A stretch of 64,000 nucleotides of DNA. Source: Aneurinibacillus soli (lineage in GTDB: Bacteria > Bacillota > Bacilli > Aneurinibacillales > Aneurinibacillaceae). The notes beneath the pieces are model-generated. The model did not search any database, was not told the DNA's origin, and saw only the letters and a list, made by a program, of their open reading frames with translations. This document shows positions 25,734-53,992 of this stretch, one piece after another (the first letter of the stretch is position 1; every line of letters begins with the position of its first letter). The stretch is taken from assembly GCF_002355375.1 (NCBI RefSeq), contig NZ_AP017312.1, positions 2,249,001 to 2,313,000 of the forward strand, read 5' to 3'. Position numbers and translations under genes: made by a program.

Positions 25734-25768
25734 ATCCTGCCTACTCTAAGGGCAGGATTATTTTTTTT
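25733..25768 (+). terminator. terminator before tape measure gene
   Basis: AATCCTGCC - tactctaag - GGCAGGATT, perfect 9-bp stem followed by ATTTTTTTT. It lies between the chaperone stop and the tape measure ribosome site, so tape measure transcription is probably attenuated. Confidence 0.85.
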
Positions 25769-25784
25769 GATCGGAGGCGCTTAT

Positions 25785-28700
25785 ATGTCAGAAGAAAAGC
25801 ACACGTTAGCCACGGAGATCGAACTGTTATTCGGTAACGCTGTCAGTGAAACAGAACGGTTAGCTAACGCTATGGCTCTGCTTAACACATCCGTTACAGC
25901 TTCGGAAGGAAAGCTGAATCTTTCTCAGTTAGTGTCTGATGTGAGCAAGTTGAAAGAAGCTCTTTCCGGTGAAGGTAAATTCATTGCAGAACTGGACGGG
26001 GGCAATATAAAAAAGCGTGTAGAGTCGTTTTTAAACAATGCTATTAACAATATGCAGATTGAACTTAAACATGAAACGCGCGGGCGAAAAGCGAATCAGA
26101 TTGATGTTTCGCAGGAAACAGGCAAGCTGGCAGAGCAAGCGCATAAGCAAATGATGGCAGAAGTTAAGAAAGCGATTGAGGAAGGTATCGTACCGGAAAG
26201 TTTCCGAGTAAAGGGAGCGGCAGGGAAGGTAAATGTAGATGTACTGAAGTTAAATAATATTGATGAAATGATAAAGTTGACAGCGCAGGCTGGGTATGAA
26301 GGTGCTGTAGATACATTAAATCGTATCAAAAATAGAGTCACACAATCACAGATGGAACAGGAAGGATTCAAGTTTACCATTCCATCTAATGCTGTAAACG
26401 CGATAAAAAATACGATTCAAGACAAAATCATCGCTGCAATGGAAAATGCAAATGTTAACGGAAACTTTAAACCAGTGGCATCATTCAACCTACAATCATT
26501 GGATTTGATTCAGAAACGGATGCGGACAGCGCTGGAAGAATCGATTAACAAGAATCTCGAATTTGAGTTCATCAACGGTAAGACGAAAGAAAAGGTGCCA
26601 TTCAAATTCACGTTTACAACTGAGCTCATGCATCGAGTGACCGAAATGGCACAACGCGAGCTCGCTAACGTGTTGGTGCAGCCGGGTAGTGTGAAGCTGC
26701 CCGAAGGATTCACGGGTGCAGACCTAAAAATCAACGTATCCGGTTTGGAGGAAACGCTGAATAAGATTAAAGCGTGGCTGGCCGCTGTTAATCGACACCT
26801 GCTTACAACGGATACAGAAGTTAACACACTTGTTTCATCCGGTGCCGGTATGGAATCGTTCCAACAGCAGGTCACAGCGGTCAGCGAGAAAATCAAGCGG
26901 ATTACTGGAATGCTAGGTCAGGTGCATGTTTCAGATGATACGGCAGGGCTAACGGCGTTCATCAAGGAAGTAGATGCTTTGCAAGGCTCACTGGTTCATT
27001 TTCTAAATGTATACAAGAAGATCCCGGCCACGATGCGATCATCATTTGATGAACAGTTATCCGTTGTGCTGAAAGAATATGAGTCTACGGTATCTCAATT
27101 GAAAAGTCAGGTGTCTCTAAAAGGACTGTCAGAGGGCGTGGCGACTTTACAGAAGAAAATGCAAGATTCGATTGAACAGACATTTGCACAGTTGATGAAA
27201 GAAGCACCGCCAACGATTGATGCCGAGAAGTTGCTTGCTGTATATAAAGCATGGTCAGGTTCACTTACGGAGCATTTGGGCCAGCTCTCAGCAGAGGAGC
27301 TAAAGCGAGTAACTGTTGCTTTGGTATCGGAAAGTGAAGGCATACAAGGCCAAGTAACAAGGTCTCTTCAGAAGTTACTGCATGTGGCGATGCCGACCCA
27401 GGTAGAGGGTGAAGGCATTACCCTTCCGTATCATGATGTTCAAGAACGAGTAAAAACGAATGTGCAGGCGTTTGTACGTCAACTTGTTAGCGAATTTGAG
27501 ATTACCCGTCCTCCAAAAGAAGGAGAAGGGCTGGGTGTTTCTATAGAGATGCCAAAGCAGGCTATCGAGCGTGTGCAGACCATGCTGAAAAGTATGGTAG
27601 AGGAGCAACTGCGTGAGATCGCTGCACAGACAGGTAAGCAGAAACCGTCTTTGTCTGGTGAGGAAGCGAAGCAGATGGATGCCCTGCTGTATGCGGAGTC
27701 TAAGCAATTCCTCAACCTTGTCGTAGATCAGGCCCGTTCTATCGCTAAGTCATTTACGGACGGCATATCGAAAGACGGATTCGCTACCTTTACGCAGGAA
27801 GAGCGTGGCAAGGTACGGGATGAGCTGTTAAAAGGTATCGGGCATATCGTATCGGAACTGTCTACCACGATTCAGGTCCTGCTTAAATCGTTTTCCGTGC
27901 CTACTGATTTACAGGTGGTAACTGGCGGGAAAACAGCTGGGATGCTTCAACAGATCATGGAGAATATTGACCGGGAAATTATTCGGCACATGGATCAGAT
28001 TCAGAGCGTAGTAGAGGGTGGAACTGGTGCGAAAACTACGTCACGTTTGCATCGCTTGAAAACGGAACTGTCTGCATTAGAACATGGCAGCATTCCGAAA
28101 GCGGAGATAGAGCGATTGAAGAAAGAGGATGATGCCTATCGTTTCTTCACAGCACTAAGCCAAGCAGGAGTAGCCCGACCGAAGCAGGGCGACGATCAGT
28201 ATGGGAAGTTCTACGTCTCGAAAGATCCATTAACTGGAGAAAAGGTACAGCCCGAGATTCCGAAGTGGGTACGTTCCCTGTTCGCCCCTTCCGATACAGG
28301 AGTTAGCTTTTCACATGCGGCACGTAGCCTATCGGAGAACTACCCGAATTTAGGTATTCATTCAGAAGATGCCTTGATGGAGCGGCTTAAGGTACTGGCA
28401 AACCGATACAAGGGATTTCGCGATATTGAAGAAAATATTAGACGACAAATGATGACGGAAGCAGATCAGGCGGTGGCTGACCATATCCGGGCTGATATTG
28501 CGCGTTTAGAACGAAAGGAGCGTCTGCTTCGTGCCGCGAGAAACTATACACCAAAAGGACGCAGCTACCGAATAAAGGACGAGTCATGGGAACCACTAGC
28601 CAATTCTTTTTCCCGTGAATCACAGATGTACGGTGGAAATATCCCGCGCTTTTCGCAAGAAGAAGTACAAACGATTGTGGAGCAAAAGCGAGAAGGGAAT

Positions 28701-31700
28701 GCACCTGTTCGAGAATTACGCGAGAAGCTTACTACCACGCAAACCGCGCTGGCAAAAGAAATCGAGGACAAAATCATCAATAATGCCGACTCGTCTATGC
28801 GTGATTTAGCACTTGCGATTCGAGAGATTCAACTGCCACCGATGGAGTTTACGATCGTAGGCCGTATCCGGTCATGGATGCAGCAGATTCAGGATGAGAC
28901 GATGCATGTACTGGAACGGATGGTTGATAGTTCGTTGCGTCCGGTGCTCGAACATGGCGTTCCATTCCCGGCGCACAACACAGGTCAACCGTTTATTCAT
29001 GCAGGACAGCCGTATCCACCTGGATTCAACCCGTTTGGTGGTCCTGTTCCTCCGAGTCTAGTACCAATCAACGTACCGCATGCAGATGGCGGAATGGTTC
29101 GAACAGACTTTGACCAGATGCATGCGTTGGAACGGCAGGCTCTTATCAATGCAGAGCGGATTCAGAATCGATTCAACGACCTGATGCAGAAAGGGACGTT
29201 TACACAGGAGAACTTCGCTTCACTCACAAATTTCCTGAACGCCTATCAGTCTGAGGTACGGGCGGCGGCAGGTCGTTATCGAAATGTACTTACTCAATTA
29301 GGAACAGACGGCATAACGGGGACTGAAGATCAAACAGTCGCCCGTTTGTTGGCAGAAGCAAGAACAAGACTACGTGAAGAAGCGAATCTTGCTAAACAAC
29401 GACTCGATCATTACATTGAGAATAGCTTCAAACCAGCTAATCAATCTGATGCATTGACGAAGCGCTTATTACAGCAGGAGCTGAAAAATATAGGATACCT
29501 TGATGCAGCAGACTTGAACATGCAGAAGATGCAGACGAAATTTCATGGCAAACTAGATGTTTCTCAGATGCAGTTGTTAAATGATGAGTTGCTGCGTTAT
29601 CAGAAACGTGCAGAACAACTAGGTTCTATGCGCTTGTTGAATGAGGAGGACATTTTAGCATCGAAGCGTGAGATACAGCATTTGAATCAGTTGCTTGCGT
29701 CGATTTCGGCAAGGTATAGCCAGCTTGCTAAACAAGCAACAGAGGTAGCGAAGCAACAACGAGCAGAGGAGAAGCGAGGGGAGCTCATCGGGCAACATAA
29801 TTTGCTTCGTGGTAGAACTCCATTCCAGTTCAATCAAATTGAAAATGTTTTAAAGTCGCTACCGTCCCTCAACCAGCATGAAGTAGTATTGAAACGAATA
29901 AGTGACTCAACGAATACATGGTCCGCTACTGTCGCGGATGCGAACGGGAATGTACGCACCCTAACTGGAACGATTGATCGAGCAACCGGGGAAATATTCA
30001 AGCACGCAGAATCTCTAGCAGCTGCTAAAAAAGCGCAACAAGAACTAATCAAACAATCGGAACATGACATTTTCGCAACCGGAAATCAAGGTAGAAGACG
30101 TAGCATGGATGGATATATGTCGCCCAGTACTGCATTTGTGAACGAAGAATATCACCCGATTGCACCAGGTGGTGATATGAAATCTTTCATCGGAAGTATC
30201 ACAAACACTATACGTTATATCCTGAGTGGTTACCTGATTAATCTTCCTATGGCATTGATGCAGGGAGCTACGGATACATTCAAAGACATGGAACTAGAAG
30301 TCATGCGAGCAAAACAGAACTTTTATGTCAAGGATTCGTCATCTGATAAATCAATGCTGAATGCCGCTGTTTTTCGGCTTGCTGAACTAAATGAAGCTGC
30401 AAAGCTTAAGAATGCTGATCCTGAGATCAAGAAAAAGTATAGCGATGATCGATACAACGATAATGCTGAGTATAAAAAAATGCTCGAAGAAGAAAAACAA
30501 CGAACAGTTTCCATGACTAGTGATGAAGCAGTAAGGAAAATCAAAAAAATATCCTATATCTATGCTACAGAAATAGAGGATACGTCCAAAATTTTTGCGG
30601 TAGCTTCCAGACGTATTCAAGACCCAAACGAAGCAATGGCGATGACTCGCGCTGTTTCAAAAGTGACAATGTTCGATGAGACAAAGAATGTGGAGCAGCT
30701 ATCCCAAGGATTCGAGGCTATCTTATCGCAATGGGGCGTAAACGGATACGGACTAGAAAAAATTGCAGACATGATGATCATGGCAACCAAAACATCGCAA
30801 GCAACGATTACAGACCTGATTCAAACACAACAACGTGCAGGTGCGATCTTCCGTAATGGTCTTCCTAATATGGATAAAGAGACCGCCCTTGCTACATCTA
30901 TTGCGTTTTCCTCAATCTTCAACCAAGCGACTGCGCAGTCTGGTAATTTAGGCGGTACGTTCTATAAGAATATGGTCGAACGTCCATATACAGCGGATAT
31001 GGCTGCTATGTTGGCGCGATATTCTGAGCAACCGATCTTTAAGAACGCAGGAATTGATCTAAATCCTTACACTGTCGATGCAAATGGGACTCGTCACCGA
31101 AAAGATTTTACTGAGGTGTTTTTTAACCTCATGGATGCAAAAAAAGTAACGGATGATGCCGGAATGTCTAAAATACTCGTTCCTGTTATCCAACGTTGGT
31201 ACTTAGGACAAGCAAATGCGATCGAAGCTTTCATTGCTGATGTTGAGCATTCTACGGAAGCAATGAACAAGTCAATGGAGAAGTTTGACGAGGTAGAAGG
31301 GAAACCGCATAAAAAAGAAGAGAAGAAAACCCAGGAAGAGTTGCGTTCGGAGCTAGAAAATAGGCTGAAAAATGCCTCTCCTGAAATCAGAGACAAGATG
31401 TTAGCTAATTTTGCTGGTGATAAAGTTAACGACATCATGAAAATGACACGCGAAAATGTCGAGATGAAGTTGAAACAGTTAGATGAAATCGAGGGTAAAC
31501 CGCACAAAAAAATCGAAGGGAAATCCATCAACGCATTTAATGAGTTTAGAGACAGGATAAAAAATGTATCGCCTGAAACAATCGCAAAATTAGAAGCGAT
31601 GAACATGGACACTCTTTCATTCCAAGAGCGCCGACTGAAAGTATCATGGGAAATCGCTTCAACGAATGTGTTGGAGCAATTCAGGGGAGATTTTACTGGA

Positions 31701-34493
31701 TTAATCACGCGATTGAATATCTTGTTGAAAGCGTTAGGCAACCACTCCGTTTTAGTCTCTGGATTGATTGGAGCAATAACAAAAGTGGGACTTACATTCG
31801 GCGCATATGCAATGGTGAACAAAGTACGAGAAAAAGTAGATAATATTAATAAAAATATCCTAGCCGAAAAAATGGATATGAACCGCGCTGCTTTGAATGA
31901 GGAAGGACGCTACTTAAATACGCGTAGGCTACTGATTGATGATCGATTAGCAGAGGGGAAAGTTAAACGTGATGGGCAAAATAAACTGCGTGGAGAGATA
32001 GAAGGTAGAAGAATCGAAGCGCAGGCGGAACTTTTATATGCGGAAGATAATCTTAAAATATTACGTGATCGGCATCGCAAATTAGTAGCTAATCCTCTTT
32101 CAACACCAGAGGAGAGAGCAGCGAGTGGGACCGAGGTACAACAGGCAGCTAAAGAAGTAAGCCGGAAGAGAAGAGAAGTTCGTAAAGAAGAAAAAGCTAT
32201 CATACGCATTGACAGTTCCGTAAGTAAAGAAGAAAAGGCATTGGGAGATGAGATGGCCTTGGTGTCTGCTCAGGCGCATCATTTAAACGAGCGGATGAAA
32301 GTATTGGATATAGCAACAACAGAGTTAGGCATAGATTCAAGTAAATTGAAAAACGAGATGAATCAAATTTCTACGTCATTTGAAAATGGAAGTGTAGATG
32401 CTGCCAAATTTGAAAAAGCACTGAAAAAGATCCATCAAGAAGCAGGTCTTACTGGAAAAGAATTCGAGAAGTTGGATAAGGAACTCAAAAGACTATATGC
32501 AGACTATACCAAAACAGGTAGCACGATGACCCATCAGCAGTTCCAGCAAGGTGTGTCAAATATTCAAAGACAGCATATGACAGGATCGGCAGGATTACAT
32601 GGTGGTGGACCAAACGGGCTGCCAGCAGAAGAACAGACCGGTGGCGGACTCGCTAATATGGTTATGGACACGGCACTGCTTGCTGGTGGAGCCAGCATGT
32701 TCAAGCAGGGAAGAAGTGCTTTGGGGAACATCGCATCTTATATAGGCTCCAAAGCAGCTCCTCTAGCTAAATTAGGCGGTAGACTATTTTTTGCATATGA
32801 GGCTTTGGACTACGGATTGAAGTTTTTAGACAATCTTAGTGTAGCAGCACTAGCTCCCTCTGATAAGGCAAGTGTAACGGCACAAAAATTGGATGAGATC
32901 GCCAAAGGATATCAGGCGATGCAAACAGAGTGGTATGATCTTTCAAGGATCGGACCGCAGATGGAATTAGGGAAAAATCGTATGGTACAAGGAATAACGC
33001 ACTGGTTAACAGGAGAAGGTCCATCTTGGGATGATTATTCAAAGATGGCGAAGTTACGAGCAGATAACCCGAATATGTCGAAAGAAGAGTTTTATCGCCT
33101 TGCAAAAAAAGAGTTGGGGATTGATGAATTAAAGGGAAAAGCTCAATTAAAGCTTACGGAAGAGGATAACAAACAAACGGAGGCATTGCAGAAGTTAGAA
33201 ATCACCCGATGGAGAGAAGTTCGCGAAACAGGTAAATTCTCCAACTTGTACGACGAGACTCAAGTAGCTCAAGCGTTAGAAATGCCGAATAAAGAGTTGA
33301 CACACGGCATGTTTCAAGCTCAGTTGCAATATGAAAAAGGAAAATCAGATTTGTCCATTAAAGGGTTTCGTGAAGATTCTGCCGAGATGATGAAGTTAAA
33401 CGATGAATTCTTTACAAAGCAACGTGAGCTGCTACAGATCAATATAAAAGTTATCGAAGACATGTTAAAACAAATGAAAGCAAAAGGTGATGATAATAAC
33501 CCAACGTTCTGGGCTGCTGAAAATGAACTGGCGCAGAAAAAAATTCAAGATGAACAAATCTCTGCTCAACAAGAACAACAAAAGCGCCAAGGGGCTGTCA
33601 GCAATATTGAGTATCACTTTGACATTGCACAACGTATAACGCAAGCGGATACATCCATCGCGAGAGACCGCCTGATTATGGATGGAGTACGAGAAGATTC
33701 GCTGGCAGGAAGGCTATTAAACAAAGAAGGATTAAAAAAAGCAAACAGCGACCTTGCAAAAGCGATCAAAGAACTACAGGAACAAGCGAGTTCAGGCAAG
33801 TTTTCAGGGGATGAACTAAGCGATTTACAAGCTAAAATTAAAGAGAGGCAGGCTGAACAAAGCAGAAACGATGTATCGTCTCATCAAATCGATAAATCAG
33901 CTGTAAGTGACATCGATTTCAGGCTTGGGCGAGCGAAGAAAGAAGCACAACTCCAAGCACAGATGAAGCACGATAACTTAATGATTGCAGGAGCGAAGGC
34001 GGATTCTATCAGCGTGCGTCTTGCAGATGTCGAAGGGTTAAAAATGCAAAACGTACAACTTTCTTCCGCGTTGGCAGAGCTACAGAAACAACTCAACAGC
34101 GGGAATTTCAAAGGTGATGATCTGAAAGATATTCAATTGCGTATGCTAGAGATTCAGGCAGAGCAGAAAGATAACCTAGTGAAAATTCGTGAGAAGTTAA
34201 CAAACAGCCTATCTACGTATAACCTACCATCCGGCATACAAGGGATGACATACCAGGAAGCTATGCAACGGAAAAATGACTATCGTTCGTATGCGATAAC
34301 AGATGGCAATACGATCGTCAATGTGAACGTACCTGTGCAGGGGCATTTTGGTGATGAAAATGTGGCAAAGCAACGTGGTCAAGCTACAGCGCGGCAGGTG
34401 GCGCAGGAAGTGGCAAATACGTTGAGTCGTCAGGTTAAATCATTCGGGGCAGGAGTTGGATATTTTAGCCCGTTCTCAGGCGGGCGTGCATAG
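25785..34493 (+). CDS. tape measure protein, 2902 aa
   Basis: Extremely long, almost wholly helical and coiled-coil protein right after the tail chaperones. Start 25785 after CGGAGG. Hydrophobic segments near residues 1480-1500 (YILSGYLINLPMALMQG), 1995-2010 (LIGAITKVGLTFGAYAMV) and 2290-2350 (Gly/Ala-rich) probably cross the host membrane during injection. Internal duplications: EGKPHKK units near residues 1840 and 1910, and a ~100-residue repeat (DSxxxRL...EGLK...N...L) near 2605 and 2710 with a weaker copy near 2515. Using the usual ~0.15 nm per residue, the tail would be about 430 nm, inferred from length only. Confidence 0.9.
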   Translation: MSEEKHTLATEIELLFGNAVSETERLANAMALLNTSVTASEGKLNLSQLVSDVSKLKEALSGEGKFIAELDGGNIKKRVESFLNNAINNMQIELKHETRGRKANQIDVSQETGKLAEQAHKQMMAEVKKAIEEGIVPESFRVKGAAGKVNVDVLKLNNIDEMIKLTAQAGYEGAVDTLNRIKNRVTQSQMEQEGFKFTIPSNAVNAIKNTIQDKIIAAMENANVNGNFKPVASFNLQSLDLIQKRMRTALEESINKNLEFEFINGKTKEKVPFKFTFTTELMHRVTEMAQRELANVLVQPGSVKLPEGFTGADLKINVSGLEETLNKIKAWLAAVNRHLLTTDTEVNTLVSSGAGMESFQQQVTAVSEKIKRITGMLGQVHVSDDTAGLTAFIKEVDALQGSLVHFLNVYKKIPATMRSSFDEQLSVVLKEYESTVSQLKSQVSLKGLSEGVATLQKKMQDSIEQTFAQLMKEAPPTIDAEKLLAVYKAWSGSLTEHLGQLSAEELKRVTVALVSESEGIQGQVTRSLQKLLHVAMPTQVEGEGITLPYHDVQERVKTNVQAFVRQLVSEFEITRPPKEGEGLGVSIEMPKQAIERVQTMLKSMVEEQLREIAAQTGKQKPSLSGEEAKQMDALLYAESKQFLNLVVDQARSIAKSFTDGISKDGFATFTQEERGKVRDELLKGIGHIVSELSTTIQVLLKSFSVPTDLQVVTGGKTAGMLQQIMENIDREIIRHMDQIQSVVEGGTGAKTTSRLHRLKTELSALEHGSIPKAEIERLKKEDDAYRFFTALSQAGVARPKQGDDQYGKFYVSKDPLTGEKVQPEIPKWVRSLFAPSDTGVSFSHAARSLSENYPNLGIHSEDALMERLKVLANRYKGFRDIEENIRRQMMTEADQAVADHIRADIARLERKERLLRAARNYTPKGRSYRIKDESWEPLANSFSRESQMYGGNIPRFSQEEVQTIVEQKREGNAPVRELREKLTTTQTALAKEIEDKIINNADSSMRDLALAIREIQLPPMEFTIVGRIRSWMQQIQDETMHVLERMVDSSLRPVLEHGVPFPAHNTGQPFIHAGQPYPPGFNPFGGPVPPSLVPINVPHADGGMVRTDFDQMHALERQALINAERIQNRFNDLMQKGTFTQENFASLTNFLNAYQSEVRAAAGRYRNVLTQLGTDGITGTEDQTVARLLAEARTRLREEANLAKQRLDHYIENSFKPANQSDALTKRLLQQELKNIGYLDAADLNMQKMQTKFHGKLDVSQMQLLNDELLRYQKRAEQLGSMRLLNEEDILASKREIQHLNQLLASISARYSQLAKQATEVAKQQRAEEKRGELIGQHNLLRGRTPFQFNQIENVLKSLPSLNQHEVVLKRISDSTNTWSATVADANGNVRTLTGTIDRATGEIFKHAESLAAAKKAQQELIKQSEHDIFATGNQGRRRSMDGYMSPSTAFVNEEYHPIAPGGDMKSFIGSITNTIRYILSGYLINLPMALMQGATDTFKDMELEVMRAKQNFYVKDSSSDKSMLNAAVFRLAELNEAAKLKNADPEIKKKYSDDRYNDNAEYKKMLEEEKQRTVSMTSDEAVRKIKKISYIYATEIEDTSKIFAVASRRIQDPNEAMAMTRAVSKVTMFDETKNVEQLSQGFEAILSQWGVNGYGLEKIADMMIMATKTSQATITDLIQTQQRAGAIFRNGLPNMDKETALATSIAFSSIFNQATAQSGNLGGTFYKNMVERPYTADMAAMLARYSEQPIFKNAGIDLNPYTVDANGTRHRKDFTEVFFNLMDAKKVTDDAGMSKILVPVIQRWYLGQANAIEAFIADVEHSTEAMNKSMEKFDEVEGKPHKKEEKKTQEELRSELENRLKNASPEIRDKMLANFAGDKVNDIMKMTRENVEMKLKQLDEIEGKPHKKIEGKSINAFNEFRDRIKNVSPETIAKLEAMNMDTLSFQERRLKVSWEIASTNVLEQFRGDFTGLITRLNILLKALGNHSVLVSGLIGAITKVGLTFGAYAMVNKVREKVDNINKNILAEKMDMNRAALNEEGRYLNTRRLLIDDRLAEGKVKRDGQNKLRGEIEGRRIEAQAELLYAEDNLKILRDRHRKLVANPLSTPEERAASGTEVQQAAKEVSRKRREVRKEEKAIIRIDSSVSKEEKALGDEMALVSAQAHHLNERMKVLDIATTELGIDSSKLKNEMNQISTSFENGSVDAAKFEKALKKIHQEAGLTGKEFEKLDKELKRLYADYTKTGSTMTHQQFQQGVSNIQRQHMTGSAGLHGGGPNGLPAEEQTGGGLANMVMDTALLAGGASMFKQGRSALGNIASYIGSKAAPLAKLGGRLFFAYEALDYGLKFLDNLSVAALAPSDKASVTAQKLDEIAKGYQAMQTEWYDLSRIGPQMELGKNRMVQGITHWLTGEGPSWDDYSKMAKLRADNPNMSKEEFYRLAKKELGIDELKGKAQLKLTEEDNKQTEALQKLEITRWREVRETGKFSNLYDETQVAQALEMPNKELTHGMFQAQLQYEKGKSDLSIKGFREDSAEMMKLNDEFFTKQRELLQINIKVIEDMLKQMKAKGDDNNPTFWAAENELAQKKIQDEQISAQQEQQKRQGAVSNIEYHFDIAQRITQADTSIARDRLIMDGVREDSLAGRLLNKEGLKKANSDLAKAIKELQEQASSGKFSGDELSDLQAKIKERQAEQSRNDVSSHQIDKSAVSDIDFRLGRAKKEAQLQAQMKHDNLMIAGAKADSISVRLADVEGLKMQNVQLSSALAELQKQLNSGNFKGDDLKDIQLRMLEIQAEQKDNLVKIREKLTNSLSTYNLPSGIQGMTYQEAMQRKNDYRSYAITDGNTIVNVNVPVQGHFGDENVAKQRGQATARQVAQEVANTLSRQVKSFGAGVGYFSPFSGGRA

Positions 34494-34740: not shown

Positions 34741-36063
34741 TTATTTCACAAATGGTATTTGTGGTAAAGCACACCATGACGCAATTGTATTATAATGCTT
34801 GGCTAATTTTTTAACTAGTTCAATACCTTCGTTTGCTGTAGTAATAGATTTGCTAACATTACTTTCTGCATTATTGATATTCTCAAGGAATTTTTGCAAC
34901 TTAGGTATGCTTGGAGAGTCCTTTAAGTGGCTTACATCCGTTTCTGACAAGTCGTCTTTTATTTCATCTAGTAATTCAATATCATGTGGGGAATTCAATA
35001 AACCACTTAAACTCTTTATGGTCTCAATAATATTACTTAACTCGTTATGTATATTATTCTGTTGGCTTAAAGATGTTTCAACTGTAATTACAGGTGATAC
35101 GTGAATGGTAGGAGGTAAGGCTGGTTTTGCTAGTCCATTACTTATAATATCAAGAAGCTTATCAATTTGATTCTTTTGGAACGTCAATATATCATTTTGA
35201 TTTTCAATGCGTAACTTTGCGATTCTGAGTTCGTTTTTTAGTTCGAGTATTTGTGTAGCTGAAGCAAAGTATTCCTCAGGCTTAATTTCACCTTTTACGA
35301 CTAACTCATATTCTTCTAATGCTTGTTCAATAATATGCTTATTGCCATCTTCAGACTCTATAATCATTTTAACTACTAAACCATCTTGTATGATTTTTAC
35401 AGTTGCTGGTGTATTTGGATACTTTTCTTGAAGGATTTTGTTAAAATAGCTAAGTATACCTAAGCCAGCTTGATAATATTCAGGTGGAAATTCAATACTC
35501 CTATTTATTACTACTTTATTATCAAACCCCTCTATAATACTAGGGATATTGGTAACTTGTAATGGTGTTTCATACTCGGAGATACCAAGTATAAGGAAAG
35601 GATAATTTATAGAAAGTGGAGATAAATCTTCAAGTTCCCTTGCACTGTTTTCAAAATAAGCTATAGGATTTGGTCCACCAAAAATTTTATTGGTTGATTC
35701 TTTCGTAAGCACAATAAGTATTGGTATTTCACAAACGGTTTCTTTTACTGCTAAGTTACTTCTTTTAAATAACCATGAAGTAAAAGTCTGAGTACTTCCT
35801 GAGGCTGTCGTGACTGCCACCATATTTTTTATAATTCCAATATGTGGATATCTTTTACTTTCTAACCAACCATATGTTTGCAAATTGAAGTCTAATTTAT
35901 TGATAAAACGTCTTATATTTTTATAGTGTGGTTCTTCTAAAGCCATATAATCGGCGAGGTTAATGTTTTCCACGGATTTAATTATATCAATAAATTCCTC
36001 TGGGTATTTTTTATTTAGTTTTTCCCATGCATCTAAGTAACTAATAACCGAATTTAAAAACAT
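34741..36063 (-). CDS. unknown accessory protein, 440 aa
   Basis: AT-rich gene opposed to the surrounding tail genes, so an inserted cargo gene. I do not recognise it. Residues 1-90 are helical; about 95-180 alternate strands and helices (EIPILIVLTKEST; FLILGISEYETPLQV), about 195-260 look like a small alpha/beta domain (YYQAGLGILSYFNKILQEKY; GLVVKMIIESEDGN), then a long coiled coil (ELRIAKLRIENQNDILTFQK) and a helical C-terminus. No membrane segment and no obvious catalytic motif. The build (sensor-like domains plus coiled coil) resembles adaptor or effector parts of defence systems, but this is a guess. Confidence 0.6.
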   Translation of the reverse strand: MFLNSVISYLDAWEKLNKKYPEEFIDIIKSVENINLADYMALEEPHYKNIRRFINKLDFNLQTYGWLESKRYPHIGIIKNMVAVTTASGSTQTFTSWLFKRSNLAVKETVCEIPILIVLTKESTNKIFGGPNPIAYFENSARELEDLSPLSINYPFLILGISEYETPLQVTNIPSIIEGFDNKVVINRSIEFPPEYYQAGLGILSYFNKILQEKYPNTPATVKIIQDGLVVKMIIESEDGNKHIIEQALEEYELVVKGEIKPEEYFASATQILELKNELRIAKLRIENQNDILTFQKNQIDKLLDIISNGLAKPALPPTIHVSPVITVETSLSQQNNIHNELSNIIETIKSLSGLLNSPHDIELLDEIKDDLSETDVSHLKDSPSIPKLQKFLENINNAESNVSKSITTANEGIELVKKLAKHYNTIASWCALPQIPFVK

Positions 36064-36929: not shown

Positions 36930-36985
36930 CAAAATTTAATAAAATGAAAATTAGGAAAACAATAGATGTGGAGGATAATATATTA

Positions 36986-37531
36986 ATGATAAAAAAACTC
37001 GAAATAAATATAAAATCAGAAGAGATTATATCATCAAGTGATTTGCAAGAGCGGTATGAGGAAATTAGCCAAGAGCTTAATGATACAACTATACGAAAGT
37101 ATGTGGTATTTAAAGAAAATAAACCTGATGTCATTATTATTAATCCACTACAATATGAGTTGTTTTTAAAACAATTAGATGAATACTCGATGTTAAGAAA
37201 AAGTCGTGATGAAAGTGTTGAGAAATTTTTAGTTGAATGTATAGAGAAAGTAGAGAAAAACACATTTTATTATTTTTGTGAACCATGTCATATACTCTTT
37301 TCTTCTGAAAAAAATATCATGAAGAAAGAAGAGGTTATTTGCCCAACATGCTATAAAAGTCATCCTGATAGTAAATTTGGAATTTTAGATATAGACAGTT
37401 GTAGTAAAAACGCTGCAAAGATTCTTACACATAAGTTAACAAATTATTATTCATTCTTAGTTGTTGATCAACTTGAAATAAAAATAGCAAACGACAAAAA
37501 GTCTCTTAAAATAGATGTTATACTGGATTAA
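36986..37531 (+). CDS. Phd/YefM-like protein with zinc ribbon, 181 aa
   Basis: N-terminal ~65 residues follow the Phd antitoxin pattern: SSSDLQERYEEISQELNDTT, YVVFKENKPDVIIINPLQYE. After a helical stretch, two CxxC pairs (CEPCHILFSSE and CPTCYKSH) suggest a zinc ribbon at about residues 90-125, then an alpha/beta tail. Phd domains repress their own operon and bind a toxin; no Doc, RelE or PIN partner lies next to it, so the C-terminal part may replace the toxin or the protein may be a solitary regulator. Start 36986 with GGAGG upstream. AT-rich like the rest of the island. Confidence 0.6.
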   Translation: MIKKLEINIKSEEIISSSDLQERYEEISQELNDTTIRKYVVFKENKPDVIIINPLQYELFLKQLDEYSMLRKSRDESVEKFLVECIEKVEKNTFYYFCEPCHILFSSEKNIMKKEEVICPTCYKSHPDSKFGILDIDSCSKNAAKILTHKLTNYYSFLVVDQLEIKIANDKKSLKIDVILD

Positions 37532-37620: not shown

Positions 37621-38229
37621 ATGTCGCAAATTAGACCGTTTGACAACGCCAACGAATCGCATAAACGAAAACTTTTCTATGCAACAGGTGTCGCCGGAGC
37701 TGAGTGGAGTGAAGTACCAGCACGTATCATCGAGCCATACCAACCACCGACACCTTCCCTGCGAGTCAAAGAGAATAAGATCATAAACGCTCCATCAGAT
37801 TTAACCGGCAGTACTACAGCAAGCTATCGAACAAAGATGCGCCTGCTGTTTCAAACTCGGCAAGATTTGTCGTCATATCTCATTTATATAAACTTCCCAC
37901 ACAAATTTTACGATGAGCGGGGCGCAATCTATATCGGATCAGTCGATGACCACGTCCCAAGTGTGTATGAAGCACTACAACGCTATATTGTGGAAATATC
38001 CATAATCATGACCCGTAAAGACCAGTATGACAAGAAATATGACAATCCATTCATCGATACTGATCCGAACGCCTGGTATTACCAAGACATGCTAGAACTC
38101 ATCGACATGGGCGTGATTGCCGGGAAAACAGATACAACGTTTCAACCAAACGGTTACGTTACACGGGCCGAGTTTACAGCACTGCTTAACCGGATGCGGC
38201 GATTCGTTGAGCTGACGATTCGAACATAG
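37621..38229 (+). CDS. SLH-domain tail protein, 202 aa
   Basis: First gene of the distal tail block. The N-terminal two thirds are unfamiliar (a beta protein with SSYLIYINFPHKFY). The C-terminal ~60 residues form one S-layer homology domain: FIDTDPNAWYYQDMLELIDM, GVIAGKTDTTFQPNGYVTRA, then EFTALLNRM. SLH domains bind pyruvylated secondary wall polymer, so this virion protein probably helps fix the tail to an S-layer-bearing host. GAGGTG ribosome site. Confidence 0.75.
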   Translation: MSQIRPFDNANESHKRKLFYATGVAGAEWSEVPARIIEPYQPPTPSLRVKENKIINAPSDLTGSTTASYRTKMRLLFQTRQDLSSYLIYINFPHKFYDERGAIYIGSVDDHVPSVYEALQRYIVEISIIMTRKDQYDKKYDNPFIDTDPNAWYYQDMLELIDMGVIAGKTDTTFQPNGYVTRAEFTALLNRMRRFVELTIRT

Positions 38230-38240
38230 GAGATGAGAGT

Positions 38241-39599
38241 ATGACAGTACGTGGGTTTGTAGATGTAACACCCGACAAATGGTTCTACGATGATGTAATG
38301 GATTGTGCTAACTACATGTTAGAAGATGATTCACCGCTGGTAGTCGGGATTCCATATTGTTCATTTGAAGCAGGTAAGCCGAATTATATCAAGGAGTTTA
38401 AAGATAACGGACAGGTTATTTTCACGTTGGACGTAGCGCTAACGATTACAGCGGATAATCCGTTATTGGTGTATATTGATGGCATACAAACGTTTTATCG
38501 GGAAGCGAAAGATGTAAACGGAAAAACAACCGTAACGATGTATGCTCCGGTTAATGGGCAGGTACTATTCAAATACATCGGTTCACCACGTATGCGCCGC
38601 ATTGATGTCACGAACACATTAGACGGACACGGAAAGCCAGCAGGAGATTGTTCACCTGGTCTGGAATATCCTCATTACCAGCTTCAATTTGGCAAGGAAG
38701 CTGATAAGTCAATCTATGAATATGTGTATAATCCTAACAGCCGTACTTTCTTTGAAAATGTATCGTGCGCCGGAACGCAGTTAAAACGTGTTCATATCCC
38801 TAACGGTGAATGGTACATATCCGACCATAACGAGCTGCTGACAAAGTATATTGGTGACAAGCCGAATCTATACATTATCACACCGGGCGGTAATATCTAC
38901 TGTTCATTCAACGTTGCGAATATCAAATGTAACATTCGGTATCAGATGAAAGTGCGTGGTATCCTGATGAATACGGGCGGTGACTTTATTCCAGTATCAC
39001 AGAAAGTGAAGTACCTTGATCGCTTTTTCCCGGACGGTCATCTGACAAGAGCGGAAGCTTTTGCGATTGTAGACCGATTACGGCGCTCGTATTATCAACG
39101 TTTCACAGATTCGGAGCCGCCAAGTGCTGTCATTAACGATACGTTTGTCGCGGAATCTTGCCAGGACAGCTTTGTGACTTCATCCCGTTTTCGAGTAGGA
39201 GAGCAACTAGAAATAAAGGTGAATGGATTTTTGAAGCAAGTCGGTATTGATTATGTGCATGCCAATGACCATACGATTCAATTCAAGTATAACGTGCCCG
39301 AAGGTTCAGTCGTAACAATCAAGCGAGTCAAGCAGGAGAGTATATTTTTCGACGGGAGATTGTTTGATCAGTATTTATCTGATGGGAGCAAGAATTCGAA
39401 AAACCTACTGAACACATGGTATCGCGACACCGTAATCAGTATGGAGAATGAACGGACAAGATCAGGAGATGCATTGGTTGTAGGGGTACCACATGAAGAT
39501 GTGATTAAGTTTGATGGCGAAGAATATATGACGCGAGCGCAGGCTGTTGTATTGCTGAATCGTTTCAGAAAATGGGCGATTGAAACTTTCAAGGGGTGA
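38241..39599 (+). CDS. SLH-like tail protein, 452 aa
   Basis: Starts with half of an SLH motif (GFVDVTPDKWFYDDVMDCAN) and has two further SLH-type endings, FFPDGHLTRAEAFAIVDRLR (near 250-275) and FDGEEYMTRAQAVVLLNRFR (near 425-446). Between them are beta-rich sections (VIFTLDVALTITADNPLLVY; EQLEIKVNGFLKQVGIDY). The SLH motifs are thus split and interleaved with structural domains. A wall-binding distal tail component is the likely role. Confidence 0.7.
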   Translation: MTVRGFVDVTPDKWFYDDVMDCANYMLEDDSPLVVGIPYCSFEAGKPNYIKEFKDNGQVIFTLDVALTITADNPLLVYIDGIQTFYREAKDVNGKTTVTMYAPVNGQVLFKYIGSPRMRRIDVTNTLDGHGKPAGDCSPGLEYPHYQLQFGKEADKSIYEYVYNPNSRTFFENVSCAGTQLKRVHIPNGEWYISDHNELLTKYIGDKPNLYIITPGGNIYCSFNVANIKCNIRYQMKVRGILMNTGGDFIPVSQKVKYLDRFFPDGHLTRAEAFAIVDRLRRSYYQRFTDSEPPSAVINDTFVAESCQDSFVTSSRFRVGEQLEIKVNGFLKQVGIDYVHANDHTIQFKYNVPEGSVVTIKRVKQESIFFDGRLFDQYLSDGSKNSKNLLNTWYRDTVISMENERTRSGDALVVGVPHEDVIKFDGEEYMTRAQAVVLLNRFRKWAIETFKG

Positions 39600-39604
39600 T
39601 ATGT

Positions 39605-42600
39605 ATGCAGCCGATTTCAGATGAGTTTAGAAAGCTTATTAAGAATCATGTCAAAGTCGGACCGCATGAAATGCCTGTGTGTATAGTAGAAGTAGACCGA
39701 ATGGTATTTGTACCGGGGCGTGTAGAGGAGATTCAGTATCTCGTTGGTGATCCAAACGTAAAGACGGTGCAGGATAGTAGTATCATAGGAGAAGGAGAAA
39801 CGATTCCGACAGATGGAATTGTGTTTCCGGTGAAAGGAAAAACACTTGCGGATGTAGGATCGAAGTTCGGGATGCGATTACATCCGATTGACCATGTATG
39901 GAAAATGCATACAGGGGTAGATATTGGTGCTCCACAAGGTACACCAATTCTAGCAGCGTGGGGTGGAACGGTCAAAAAAGCCGGATGGCAAAATGGCTAT
40001 GGTAATACAGTAATAATCGATCATGGGCATGGATATTATACACGTTATGGTCATATGTGTGATAACTGCATCAATGTAAAAGAGGGAACCATTGTGAAAT
40101 CTGGGCAGGAAATTGGTGCGGTCGGGAGTACTGGAAAGTCGACGAAACCGCATCTTCACTTTGAAGTACTGTATAAAGGAGTAGACCCAGCTACTAGCTA
40201 TGCCCGTGACCCGTTGCCATACCTGCAAAAGAAGCAGACCGTTCCTGCACCCGTGCAGAACACAGGACCTGATGTTGTGACACAAACGCCTATTACGTTT
40301 AGTTTAGGGGCGATGGCTTTTTCAGCAACGTTTGATTTATCTAAATGGGCGAGTATGCCGGAGTTGAAACTCCCTGGTAAAGAAGACTTTTATTTTAAGG
40401 GTTTAAATCCAAAAGTAACGGGTATTCCGGTTATTTACTTTGAATTTGATCCAGCAAAAATGCTGGAGGAGGGGCTAAGCACCGCAGTTGGTCGTCCGTT
40501 GATACTGAATCTTGATTTAGAGAAACGCGCACTACTTGATGTGTCATTTCTCACAAATTTTGTTTCAGACTCAGGTGATTCTTTTTCTATCATGGTTAAC
40601 GGAGTAACAAAAGCTGTTTTGAAAAAGTTTAAGCCGGGAGCGACCGTGGATCGGTTATCAGATATTTTATTGGAAGCGGGGAAGACAGAAATACAGTTCG
40701 TAGTATATTGGCATGGTCCTTCTCATCCACAAGACAAAGTTTTGAAACGGTTCGGTTTCAAGTCGATTAATGTACGCTACGTGAATGAAATTGTTGGTCA
40801 GTCTCAATCTCAATCAGAATCAGACGATCCAACCTTGATTGCTCGTTCGTTAGCCAACGTATTTAACCCTACGCGGCGGGAGAAAATCTCGCTTCCGGTC
40901 GGTGATTTCGTGCCAGCAGAAACGATTCGATTGGATAATGTGAAAGAAGTAGAAATCGATGACAAATTCGAGATGGAAGCAGCAGAGGCGAGAATTATCA
41001 TGTCGAATCCAAAAGGCTTTTATTCGTCTACGTATGATACAGGTTTATTCCCAGAGCTTCGCTATGAAACACCATTTTCCTATACGGCTAATGGTGTTCA
41101 CATGGGACTACTGTCTGAGAATACACCGATTCGTATTCATATGGGATATGGTCGGCACACAATACGAGTGTTTACCGGGCTGATTGATAAAGTAGATAGT
41201 AATAGCGAGGAAGAAACGATTACCATAACATGCCGGAACATGTACAAGCGGTTGATCGAAAAGGTTGTTACAGAGGATTTGGAATATGGCTATTCAGCGA
41301 GCGATGCATCTGTTGCGAATGTAGCGGCAGCGTTGAATGATGGTACGGATGTTGATAATTTATCGCGACTGAAAAAAATCATTTACTACGCTCAAAAGTG
41401 GGCTAAGCATTATGGTGTGGACCCGATTGTGATTCTGGCTGTTGCTCAAAAGGAAACAGAACTTGGTACAACAGGTGCAGGTCGGGAGGTTGGGGGAGAT
41501 TACATCTGTGGATATGGAGTGCCGAGTAAAACAAAAAAACTTCCGCAATTCGCAGGAATCGAAGCTCAATGCAAAGCGGTTGCCGAACGTATGAAAAAGG
41601 TGTGCGGTACAGGAGAAGTTACTCGCGAGTACATCAGGAAACTTTGGATATCGTATGAAAATGGCGATCCTACATGGACACCAGATGTGTGGAGTATTTA
41701 TCAAAAAATGAAGGGAGATGCTCAATTCACAGAAGCAGTGTTCAAGGCAGACTCCGCACCTGTCCCGAGTGGGAACACGTCTAATTTATCTGTTAATATC
41801 AAGCAGAATTTGTTACGTATGAATCCAAAATCTCGTTCAGGGAAAAAGTTAAAAGGAGTAAAAGGCATTGTTCTTCACTACACGGCAGGTCCTGGACAAA
41901 GCGCCGAGCAAATTCGTAACTACTTCAATAATATTTCAGACCGTTACGCATCTGCTAATTATGTAGTAGATGATTCAACTATTGTACAATGCATCCCAGA
42001 TGATGAGGAGGCTTATCATTGCGGTGCTGAACATTATCAACCAGGTGTGACGGATGCTTTGGGCAATCACCCGAATGAAACCACACTCGGTATCGAGATG
42101 TGTGTAGATAGCAACAATCAAATTACAGCAGCGACATATCAGAACGCAGTCAACTTGACAGCCTATTTGTGCAAAAAATACGGCCTAACAGCAGGACAAC
42201 TATGGCGACATCATGATATTACGGGAAAAGATTGTCCGGCACCATGGGTAGACGATCCGTCGAAATGGGAGAAGTTTAAAAAAGATGTAGCCGCAAAACT
42301 GGATGGACAAGGTGTGACGACTGTTTCGGCACAGGAAGCAGCTGGGTTATCATCGTATTGGTTGAAGTCAGCTATTTTACAGGACTTGATTCGTGTCGGC
42401 GGCCTTGTTGGTTGGAGAAAGCAATATGAAGATCGAATATATCCTGATTCTATCATCGAAGAAACATATTACATCGATGTGAAACCAGAAAAACGAATGG
42501 TGGTCAAGGCGAATCCGGCAGAGAATGGGGAATATACTTTCTCAGAAATTCCACTTACTACCATCAAGACGATAGATGGATGGAAGAACGGGCTATATCA

Positions 42601-43219
42601 GCTCCCAACTACATTTTCGGCGTTCAAATACAAGGTGAATGAATGTATCCGTGAAATCACGAAGGACACAAACTATCGGACATGGTGTGACCGATATGGA
42701 ACATTCCGAGCAGAGCCTGTTGAGTATGATTCTCCAGTGGTGGAACGTTTTACAGACATGGAGAATCTATGTGCGGTCAGTTCTTCAATCGATTACTCAC
42801 GGGCGAGGTCGCATGTGATTGTAGTAGATGGGACAGGTAAGGCGCGGCATTACATTGACCCAGAGATTCTGCTCGAGCTGAAAGGAGAGTTGCGCAGCGC
42901 AGTATTAGAAGTGTCGTGGGCTAAGACTGATGAACAAAAAGACGAAGATGCACGCCGTGTATTCTGGGATATGAAACGTATGTGCCGCACACTACAAGTC
43001 TCGATCCCAGCGCATCCTCATTTGGACGTACTCGATTGTATTCATATATCTGATGTACGAACATGTACACGGGGTGACTTTACGATAAAGGGGATTCATA
43101 CTACGTTTAAAGAAGGTGCGGAGTTTACGCAGACACTTGACCTTACTTGGATGGAAACAAATGAGATGATAACAAAAAATAATGCGAGATTGATCGCGAG
43201 TGAAGCGAAGCAGGCGTAA
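39605..43219 (+). CDS. tail hub with three peptidoglycan hydrolase domains, 1204 aa
   Basis: Tail-associated lysin. In order: N-terminal hub part; M23 endopeptidase (about 85-205) with HTGVDIG and HLHFE zinc motifs; beta-rich domains; hub/gp27-like part (about 455-570); a lysozyme/transglycosylase-like domain (about 590-710) with YGVDPIVILAVAQKETELG; an amidase_2 domain (about 745-900) with zinc-type IVLHYTAG and HHDITGKDC; then hub sequence resumes to the C-terminus. It should cut peptide cross-links, glycan and the amide bond to let DNA through a thick wall. The enzymes appear as insertions in the hub. Start 39605. Confidence 0.85.
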   Translation: MQPISDEFRKLIKNHVKVGPHEMPVCIVEVDRMVFVPGRVEEIQYLVGDPNVKTVQDSSIIGEGETIPTDGIVFPVKGKTLADVGSKFGMRLHPIDHVWKMHTGVDIGAPQGTPILAAWGGTVKKAGWQNGYGNTVIIDHGHGYYTRYGHMCDNCINVKEGTIVKSGQEIGAVGSTGKSTKPHLHFEVLYKGVDPATSYARDPLPYLQKKQTVPAPVQNTGPDVVTQTPITFSLGAMAFSATFDLSKWASMPELKLPGKEDFYFKGLNPKVTGIPVIYFEFDPAKMLEEGLSTAVGRPLILNLDLEKRALLDVSFLTNFVSDSGDSFSIMVNGVTKAVLKKFKPGATVDRLSDILLEAGKTEIQFVVYWHGPSHPQDKVLKRFGFKSINVRYVNEIVGQSQSQSESDDPTLIARSLANVFNPTRREKISLPVGDFVPAETIRLDNVKEVEIDDKFEMEAAEARIIMSNPKGFYSSTYDTGLFPELRYETPFSYTANGVHMGLLSENTPIRIHMGYGRHTIRVFTGLIDKVDSNSEEETITITCRNMYKRLIEKVVTEDLEYGYSASDASVANVAAALNDGTDVDNLSRLKKIIYYAQKWAKHYGVDPIVILAVAQKETELGTTGAGREVGGDYICGYGVPSKTKKLPQFAGIEAQCKAVAERMKKVCGTGEVTREYIRKLWISYENGDPTWTPDVWSIYQKMKGDAQFTEAVFKADSAPVPSGNTSNLSVNIKQNLLRMNPKSRSGKKLKGVKGIVLHYTAGPGQSAEQIRNYFNNISDRYASANYVVDDSTIVQCIPDDEEAYHCGAEHYQPGVTDALGNHPNETTLGIEMCVDSNNQITAATYQNAVNLTAYLCKKYGLTAGQLWRHHDITGKDCPAPWVDDPSKWEKFKKDVAAKLDGQGVTTVSAQEAAGLSSYWLKSAILQDLIRVGGLVGWRKQYEDRIYPDSIIEETYYIDVKPEKRMVVKANPAENGEYTFSEIPLTTIKTIDGWKNGLYQLPTTFSAFKYKVNECIREITKDTNYRTWCDRYGTFRAEPVEYDSPVVERFTDMENLCAVSSSIDYSRARSHVIVVDGTGKARHYIDPEILLELKGELRSAVLEVSWAKTDEQKDEDARRVFWDMKRMCRTLQVSIPAHPHLDVLDCIHISDVRTCTRGDFTIKGIHTTFKEGAEFTQTLDLTWMETNEMITKNNARLIASEAKQA

Positions 43220-53305: not shown

Positions 53306-53881
53306 TTATCTTGTTTTAGTCGCGCTTCCTCCATTAAGAGTAACATAAGCGCTATGCTTTCCATTTTTCAATTGGTAACCTGTCACCTTTAGTTTCAAGT
53401 CCATGTATTTTCCATTGTACGAAATGGTTACGGGATACTCCCCATTTTTTGTAGCGGTGATGATGCCATTTTTATCAACGGAGATTGGCGTTCCTTTTGG
53501 GATTTCCCATACGACTTTATCAGTAATTTTAATAGGTTTTGAGCCATACACAGCATCTATGTCAATCTTACTTTGAACAACTTTATCCTTGCCGATACTT
53601 CTTTCAATTGGATCAACTGCTAGTCTAAAATCTGCATTTTCCGTTTTCGTATCATCTTTCGGCTGAGTTGTGGTCGATGGAGTAGTCGGAGTCGTTGGTG
53701 TAGATGGTGTTGTAGGAGTCGTTTTCGGCTTGGTAATAATAATTTGCGTACTCGTTTCCGTAACTTTTAACCCATCTTTCTCTGCTAATGCCTTAATATC
53801 AGCGATACTATCAGCAAATACGGCAACAGGAGCTAATACTAGAGTGGCTGCCGTTACTGTAGCAGCAATAAACTTTTTCAT
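53306..53881 (-). CDS. secreted protein with Ig-like domain, 191 aa
   Basis: Signal peptide MKKFIAATVTAATLVLAPVA with cleavage after VFA-D near residue 23, a short helical part, then a Thr/Pro linker (TTPTTPSTPTTPTTPS) and a C-terminal bacterial Ig-like (Big_2-type) domain: VVWEIPKGTPISVDKNGIIT, NGEYPVTISYNGK. Start 53881 follows AAGGGAGAGG. It opposes the tail genes and has its own terminator, the mark of a moron expressed in the lysogen. It probably acts outside the cell or at the wall; target unknown. A GTGACT/TACAAT pair near 53930-53960 may be its promoter. Confidence 0.75.
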   Translation of the reverse strand: MKKFIAATVTAATLVLAPVAVFADSIADIKALAEKDGLKVTETSTQIIITKPKTTPTTPSTPTTPTTPSTTTQPKDDTKTENADFRLAVDPIERSIGKDKVVQSKIDIDAVYGSKPIKITDKVVWEIPKGTPISVDKNGIITATKNGEYPVTISYNGKYMDLKLKVTGYQLKNGKHSAYVTLNGGSATKTR

Positions 53882-53992
53882 GCTTCCCTCTCCCTTTTTA
53901 CAATATATGTTTGTATTGATTCTATTGTATATATGGGACAAGTAGAAAGTCACTTGTTTTTTGGTAAAGTTTGTATAAGGTAGGTGAAGGAG

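Follow-up and report, generated by a model that had tools for sequence, protein, structure and literature searches.

In 80alpha, the tail-associated lysin (Tal, gp59) is a trimeric tail-tip protein in which a putative wall hydrolase lies C-terminal to a gp27-like hub (PMC7048315). The virion-associated hydrolases of staphylococcal phages are described as having "one or two catalytic domains" (PMC5784253), and most Tal proteins in an enterococcal survey have a single lysin (PMC10194240). Staphylococcus phage JS1 has three separate virion hydrolases, one of which, JS1_0224, has two catalytic domains (PMC12977511). Three catalytic domains in one chain have been reported for the predicted endolysin 1G20T of PhaLP 2.0 (PMC13237592) and for engineered LysK-lysostaphin chimeras (PMC5784253), which are an endolysin and artificial fusions, respectively. 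The architecture analysis of PhaLP 2.0 covers endolysins only (PMC13237592). In PhaLP 1.0, 8.8% of the entries have several different catalytic domains but lack an annotated binding domain, a value that is not counted per virion lysin (PMC8310338), and triple virion lysins may be present unnamed in PhaLP. A search of the open-access literature turned up no tail protein that carries three such domains, which is weak evidence of absence. Here I describe a prophage-borne open reading frame (ORF) in a 64,000-nucleotide stretch of the Aneurinibacillus soli genome (contig NZ_AP017312.1, positions 2,249,001 to 2,313,000; hereafter the window, with coordinates counted from its first letter). The ORF encodes a probable tail hub with three predicted wall-hydrolase domains: an M23 endopeptidase, a lysozyme-fold domain (here called LYZ), and an Amidase_2 domain.

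A first-pass annotation of this DNA had proposed a single hub protein with these three kinds of hydrolase, against a background of tail lysins with usually one or two catalytic domains. The latter remark agrees with the staphylococcal and enterococcal papers (PMC5784253, PMC10194240), and the former is borne out by one uninterrupted ORF in which M23 and Amidase_2 are recognized by Pfam and LYZ by its predicted fold. Like 80alpha Tal, the window's protein combines a gp27-like hub and wall hydrolase domains in one chain, and it contains at least one peptidoglycan hydrolase domain, as expected for a Tal, since both M23 and Amidase_2 exceed the Pfam cut-offs. In contrast to 80alpha Tal, it has its hydrolases, of which there are three, inside the hub core. 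The 80alpha layout with the hydrolase C-terminal to the hub, which is not a requirement of the class, is not found, as the last hub segment comes after all three hydrolases. JS1 also carries several wall hydrolases per virion, whereas the window has three catalytic domains in one hub. The Tal design of a hub and a hydrolase in one chain is known, and what is new is that the hydrolases are inside the hub and three in number.

The hub ORF occupies positions 39596-43219 on the + strand, has no internal stop codon, and encodes 1207 amino acids counted from a GTG codon. The ATG at 39605 (codon 4) is the likelier start codon, because AAGGGGTGAT precedes it and the stop codon of the upstream gene (39599) comes earlier. 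The tail hub/tail-associated lysin ORF is given here as 39605-43219 (+), for a protein of 1204-1207 residues, with the GTG at 39596 also open. All the parts of the protein described below are likewise on the + strand. The M23 endopeptidase domain comprises residues 80-215 (39833-40240). Peptidase_M23 of Pfam matches residues 103-195 with 114 bits against a cut-off of 28.7 (E = 3.7e-33), and positions 51-207 of the full-length structural model align with a solved M23 structure (9gy1) at Z = 20.7. In 34 representative hubs of the family, H105, D109, H153, and H188 are invariant and H186 is kept in at least 90%. The domain thus has the HxxxD/HxH zinc site and the catalytic His of the M23 family. 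I take H105, D109, and H188 to be the zinc ligands, and H153 and H186 to be the catalytic His residues, as in LytM-type enzymes. The Amidase_2 insertion comprises residues 731-912 (41786-42331), where Amidase_2 of Pfam matches residues 755-883 with 89.4 bits against a cut-off of 26 (E = 3.2e-25). It aligns with XlyA (3hmb, E = 1.7e-9) with H761, H872, C880, E834, and K878 in register, and both the family score and the His/His/Cys zinc site are present. H761, H872, and C880 are presumably the zinc ligands, alongside E834 and K878, with roles as in T7-lysozyme-type amidases. The zinc and catalytic residues expected of both enzyme families are in place.

The third domain, LYZ, comprises residues 578-716 (41327-41743), with E620 (codon 41453-41455) as its candidate catalytic Glu. 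When LYZ was folded alone with 29 aligned sequences, it gave a predicted local distance difference test (pLDDT) score of 86.7. The titles of the best 50 of 142 Foldseek matches in the PDB (to E = 10) all denote enzymes of the lysozyme superfamily or proteins with such a domain. The listerial autolysin Auto, FlgJ, a g-type lysozyme, a type VI effector, and LytB are at the top, and a Thermotoga glucosaminidase and lytic transglycosylases are lower in the list. Auto and FlgJ match with a Foldseek probability of 1.00 and a template modeling (TM) score of 0.54-0.56. Glucosaminidases and transglycosylases were also the top matches in a viral structure library, and the VIA aligner gave Z = 8-10 to the GH73 enzyme Auto, the Thermotoga glucosaminidase, FlgJ, a g-type lysozyme, and MltF. 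E620 is invariant in 29/29 LYZ sequences and sits at the end of the helix 43-54 of the LYZ model. LYZ therefore has a predicted lysozyme-like fold with a Glu at a helix end, as the lysozyme superfamily does, subject to the caveat for Z values among helical folds given below.

How widespread is LYZ? The window's LYZ was recovered with the domain of Bacillus phage EZ-2018a alone as the query (independent E = 4.3e-10). A tblastn search with the window's LYZ in 50,697 phage records found only EZ-2018a and one chance-level match (E = 2). Among 299 genomes of the class there were 14 matches, all within open frames of hub size (1016-1211 amino acids). In a viral protein that lacks hub sequence (L140, 3947-5014), LYZ (LYZ profile E = 1e-23) is fused to NlpC/P60 (E = 1.1e-16). 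This fusion supports a wall-hydrolase role of LYZ. The LYZ-type domain of L140 scores 24.7 bits (E = 4.1e-5) against Glucosaminidase, which is still under the cut-off. The local profiles for LYZ, the hub, and other parts were built from alignments containing the window, so that the window's own scores are partly by construction. Taken together, LYZ is best described as a lysozyme-fold, glycosidase-like domain, whose activity, predicted from the model, is the least certain of the three.

The hub itself is represented by three segments. Segment 1 (residues 10-62; 39623-39781) matches the profile hubN at E = 1e-25 and lies inside the range aligned to solved hubs. Segment 2 (residues 418-562; 40847-41281) matches the profile hubM at E = 3e-71, and segment 3 (residues 921-1192; 42356-43171) matches the profile of A1 at E = 6e-129; each of these two profiles matches 30/30 clusters of the family. 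PHROG family phrog_36429 matches the hub with its best stretch at 916-1186 (E = 2.5e-72), and many endolysin families cover the two enzymes among the PHROG matches listed (the best 25 of 50). A full-length model was made with AlphaFold2 for residues 8-1207 from 26 aligned sequences (a model residue is the protein residue minus 7). In a second-look VIA alignment, the model from about 17 to 1180 superposes on solved hubs with a root-mean-square deviation of 4.1-6.5 Å. The whole model aligns with the tail of the Haloferax virus HFTV1 (9h4p; Z = 15.1, 240 aligned), the MuSo2 43-kDa tail protein (3cdd; Z = 14.1, 266 aligned, model 17-1179), the E217 hub (8eon_E; Z = 13.9, 223 aligned), the R2 pyocin hub (6u5h; Z = 13.6, 271 aligned), and Mu gp44 (1wru; Z = 13.4, 273 aligned, model 20-1180). 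By Z = 13.4-15.1 to these five solved hubs, a hub fold of the Mu gp44/T4 gp27 type is found in a full-length model of low confidence, and the modeled protein resembles hubs of the Mu gp44/E217 gp41 type. A search of solved structures with the C-terminal hub profile gave nothing credible (one match, E = 0.42).

Because the catalytic domains fill much of residues 80-215 and 578-912, the hub core of the model is probably split in the chain into the first ~60 residues, the middle (~418-562), and the last 290, for which the aligner reports only end residues. The first-pass annotation had placed hub sequence before, between, and after the hydrolases. This is correct for residues 10-62, for residues 418-562 between M23 and LYZ, and for residues 921-1192, while no hub sequence separates LYZ from the amidase, which are neighbors in one loop. 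Between M23 and the hub middle, there is a beta-rich insert (residues 225-400; 40268-40795) with beta strands in the AlphaFold2 model, and its profile matches the representative hubs in that half of the family to which the window belongs. This insert is possibly a binding module.

Is this arrangement common in the hub family? I collected homologous hubs from viral contigs (38 loci), genome contigs (32 loci), and phages and further genomes. From the 77 loci, L086 (a hub split over two frames) and L087 (a partial hub of 273 amino acids) were set aside, leaving 75 full hubs with 59 distinct sequences in 30 clusters at 90% identity; several loci are one phage in two collections. Four loci added later (L185, L193, L205, and L211) are in the Pfam count (34 representatives) and outside the tree and the loop-length count. 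The loop-2 analysis excludes the hub on a Paenibacillus peoriae plasmid (H63), short-locus hubs, and a contig-end partial hub (L011 in G003). Pfam finds M23 in 34/34 representatives, a 3D domain in 10, Glucosaminidase (GH73) in two, PG_binding_1 in one, and Amidase_2 only in the window. LYZ lies after the hub middle in 12 of the 30 clusters including the window, before M23 in four, and was not found in 14. Loop 2, from the hub middle to the hub C-terminus, is 14-23 residues long in 16/30 clusters, 172-198 residues (one domain) in 13/30, and 358 residues in the window. In L047 (E = 7.6e-38) and L085, a GH73 domain occupies the site of LYZ in their relatives. The six architectures in the 30 clusters require six changes on the tree of the hub segments, close to the minimum possible of five (shuffled mean 16.8; 0/200 shuffles as low). 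These sequence comparisons suggest that hydrolases have been swapped at fixed sites of the hub. Two annotated public records of such hubs are labeled only as "M23" peptidase. Apart from these counts, the hub genes are split or partial in the two Paenibacillus chromosomes with L086 and L087, and some prophages with this kind of hub may be decaying.

Two described phages belong to the window's family by their hub middle and C-terminal segments, namely Brevibacillus phage Jenst (JENST_38, phrog_36429), a siphovirus by transmission electron microscopy (PMC4909266), and Bacillus phage EZ-2018a. By tblastn, parts of the window's protein are matched in the hubs of EZ-2018a (E = 7e-41) and Jenst (E = 3e-34). 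Both phages share with the window M23 in the first loop and the gene order after the tape measure gene. In contrast to the window, Jenst has M23 and a 3D domain and EZ-2018a has LYZ ahead of M23, and in both the second loop is empty and the hub has no amidase. The nearest hub is that of the IMG/VR contig 3300033753_000334 (L007/L033), which is 76% identical over the alignment and has M23, LYZ, and the same segment order without the amidase. Between the window and this hub, the proportion of nonsynonymous differences per site (pN) is 0.07-0.23 in the six shared segments, while that of synonymous differences (pS) is 0.63-0.83. Since pN is far below pS in all six segments, the hub, M23, and LYZ appear from these sequences to be kept by selection; the ratio of substitution rates, dN/dS, is not computable in five of the six segments, where synonymous sites are saturated.

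At the position of the window's amidase, the nearest hub has a 26-residue linker. In L185, PG_binding_1 occupies the linker that holds the amidase in the window, and therefore this spot accepts domains. The hub frame of L185 (1893-5912; 1340 amino acids) is also the longest examined and carries M23, LYZ, PG_binding_1, and an extra stretch C-terminal to the hub. Judged by the sequences, the amidase was most likely inserted recently and in frame into the linker that joins LYZ to hub segment 3. Its acquisition by the window's lineage is the simplest view because the amidase is absent from the nearest hub and the other hubs examined. Its closest phage relatives are Listeria phage endolysins with about 46% identity (147 phage records matched), pointing to a probable endolysin-type source. 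The Amidase_2 gene of Jenst was considered as a direct source and rejected, being only 32% identical to the hub amidase. Viral contigs scanned for near relatives of the amidase gave five pattern matches and no relatives, and PF01510 was not found in the L007 record, which is possibly a fragment. The amidase has a GC content of 0.422, inside the range found for the tail genes (mean 0.438, standard deviation 0.026), and its GC3 is ordinary; therefore, composition is uninformative on its origin.

The hub gene stands in a tail operon in the order of a tape measure gene, two tail genes, and the hub, and phage Jenst has the matching order. The tape measure protein (25767-34493, +; 2908 amino acids) matches phrog_28 (E = 2.8e-8) and PhageMin_Tail (E = 6.8e-8), the latter at 33.1 bits, marginally below the cut-off of 33.2. 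The first tail gene (37621-38229, +) encodes an SLH domain (PF00395, E = 2.6e-11), and by eye a counterpart precedes the hub in L007 and L008. The second (38241-39599, +), directly upstream of the hub, matches phrog_29574 (E = 2.8e-28) and has a counterpart, by eye and position, in L007, L008, L009, L010, and L012. SLH-type repeats were also seen in the second gene, by eye only and by eye in the relatives too, while Pfam finds none there. The S-layer-type anchoring sequence in these two genes may be a receptor-binding part of the tail tip. Two genes (34741-36063, -, and 36944-37531, +), by eye not tail-like, split the tail operon between the tape measure gene and the SLH gene and are possibly cargo or defence genes. 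Opposite to the tail operon, the gene at 53306-53953 (-) encodes a protein that looks secreted, with a signal peptide and Thr/Pro repeats recognized by eye; this gene may be lysogeny cargo. Downstream of the hub are a gene for an endolysin-like M15 peptidase (G000:C1:2344036-2344839; 267 amino acids; Peptidase_M15_4 of Pfam, E = 6.1e-17) and a serine recombinase gene, both apparently in the hub's prophage. The M15 protein (L162, 11036-11839) ends in a Cu_amine_oxidN1-type C-terminus, an unexpected pairing for an endolysin.

I consider it probable that the protein is the central tail hub, of the Tal and Mu gp44/T4 gp27-like kind, of a siphovirus-like prophage, whose loops carry three wall hydrolases for entry, the amidase being a recent gain. 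The hub core would fold from three separated stretches of the chain, with M23 and the beta-rich module in loop 1, and LYZ followed by the amidase in loop 2. After adsorption, the tail tip would bring the hydrolase domains into contact with the wall. Acting jointly on peptide cross-links (endopeptidase), glycan (glycosidase), and the MurNAc-L-Ala bond (amidase), they would make an opening through which the tail tube and DNA could pass. The amidase would have entered in frame, in the linker from LYZ to segment 3, from an endolysin-type source. Catalysis by all three domains, and thus the cutting of three bond types, is predicted from their sequences. Use of the hydrolases at entry and their location in the virion are likewise presumed, a siphovirus form is suggested by analogy with phage Jenst, and a trimer by analogy with 80alpha Tal.

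Several observations weigh against this reading. Confidence in the full-length model is low (mean pLDDT 59.5; 440/1200 residues below 50), the amidase is present in 0/25 of the aligned relatives behind this model, and no solved hub is among the 50 Foldseek matches listed, which are occupied by M23 enzymes. LYZ has no match above the cut-offs of the family libraries and, in Pfam, stays under the gathering score of GH73 (Glucosaminidase, PF01832; 16.9 bits against 30.2, E = 0.011) and that of SLT_2 (12.9 bits against 24.3, E = 0.063). Its Foldseek E values are marginal (best 0.027 in the PDB, with none below 0.001, and best 0.0051 in the viral library), and its best VIA Z is 10.1, where values below about 13 may reflect an arrangement common in helical folds. 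A sequence search of LYZ against solved structures gave nothing credible (three unrelated matches, best E = 0.42). The assignment of LYZ to GH73 was not adopted, as its profile could not be matched to that of the GH73 domain in L047 (probability 0.1); a search of the window's own genome gave no PF01832. A GGD motif and about eight residues, kept in the other 14 of 16 rows, are absent from the LYZ of the window and the nearest hub, a loss which could harm catalysis. The amidase was found in no other hub, and the comparison for selection covers the six shared segments. Finally, all the evidence is sequence and models, from which I infer enzyme activity and presence in the virion.

These points bear on what the three domains do. 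It is conceivable, though I rate it as rather unlikely, that only one or two of them are active, with LYZ (or the amidase) as a wall-binding module and M23 doing the cutting. M23 is indeed the only hydrolase found in 34/34 representative hubs, and in 4/30 clusters M23 stands without any of the four further catalytic domains looked for. The missing LYZ motif fits this explanation as well, and PG_binding_1 in the amidase linker of L185 indicates that the position may serve binding. However, the invariance of the candidate Glu of LYZ and the match of the three amidase ligand positions to XlyA argue for active enzymes, and the genuine GH73 domains at the LYZ site of L047 and L085 suggest that a glycosidase is wanted there. 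No Amidase_2 other than that of the hub was found in the 4.12-Mb genome, and this, like the kinship of the hub amidase with endolysins, would suit a domain that replaces the endolysin of the phage. Such a replacement is unlikely because the prophage apparently has a separate endolysin-like gene, that of the M15 peptidase, downstream of the hub, and hub homology and gene position favor a part of the virion.

Could the amidase be no true part of the hub but an assembly chimera or a sequencing artefact? Its occurrence in one of the 34 hubs by Pfam and its absence from the others examined might raise this suspicion. However, the ORF runs uninterrupted across both joints in a single-contig genome, no second Amidase_2 was found in the genome to supply a chimera, and the GC content is compatible with that of the tail genes, so that an artefact is very improbable.

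It is an even call whether such hubs are, more generally, a chassis with fixed docking loops at which hydrolases and binding domains are inserted, moved, and swapped without breaking tail assembly, where the window stacks a peptidase, a glycosidase, and an amidase, and LYZ is a glycosidase family outside Pfam found almost only in these hubs. The findings point to a tail-tip site suited to grafting and to a glycosidase-like domain that is associated with hubs and unnamed in Pfam. One loop that occurs empty, with one domain, or with two offers natural controls. With three hydrolases in the loops of this hub, and two or one at the same places in its close relatives, it becomes testable by what route phages acquire wall hydrolases and whether their mix follows the host wall.

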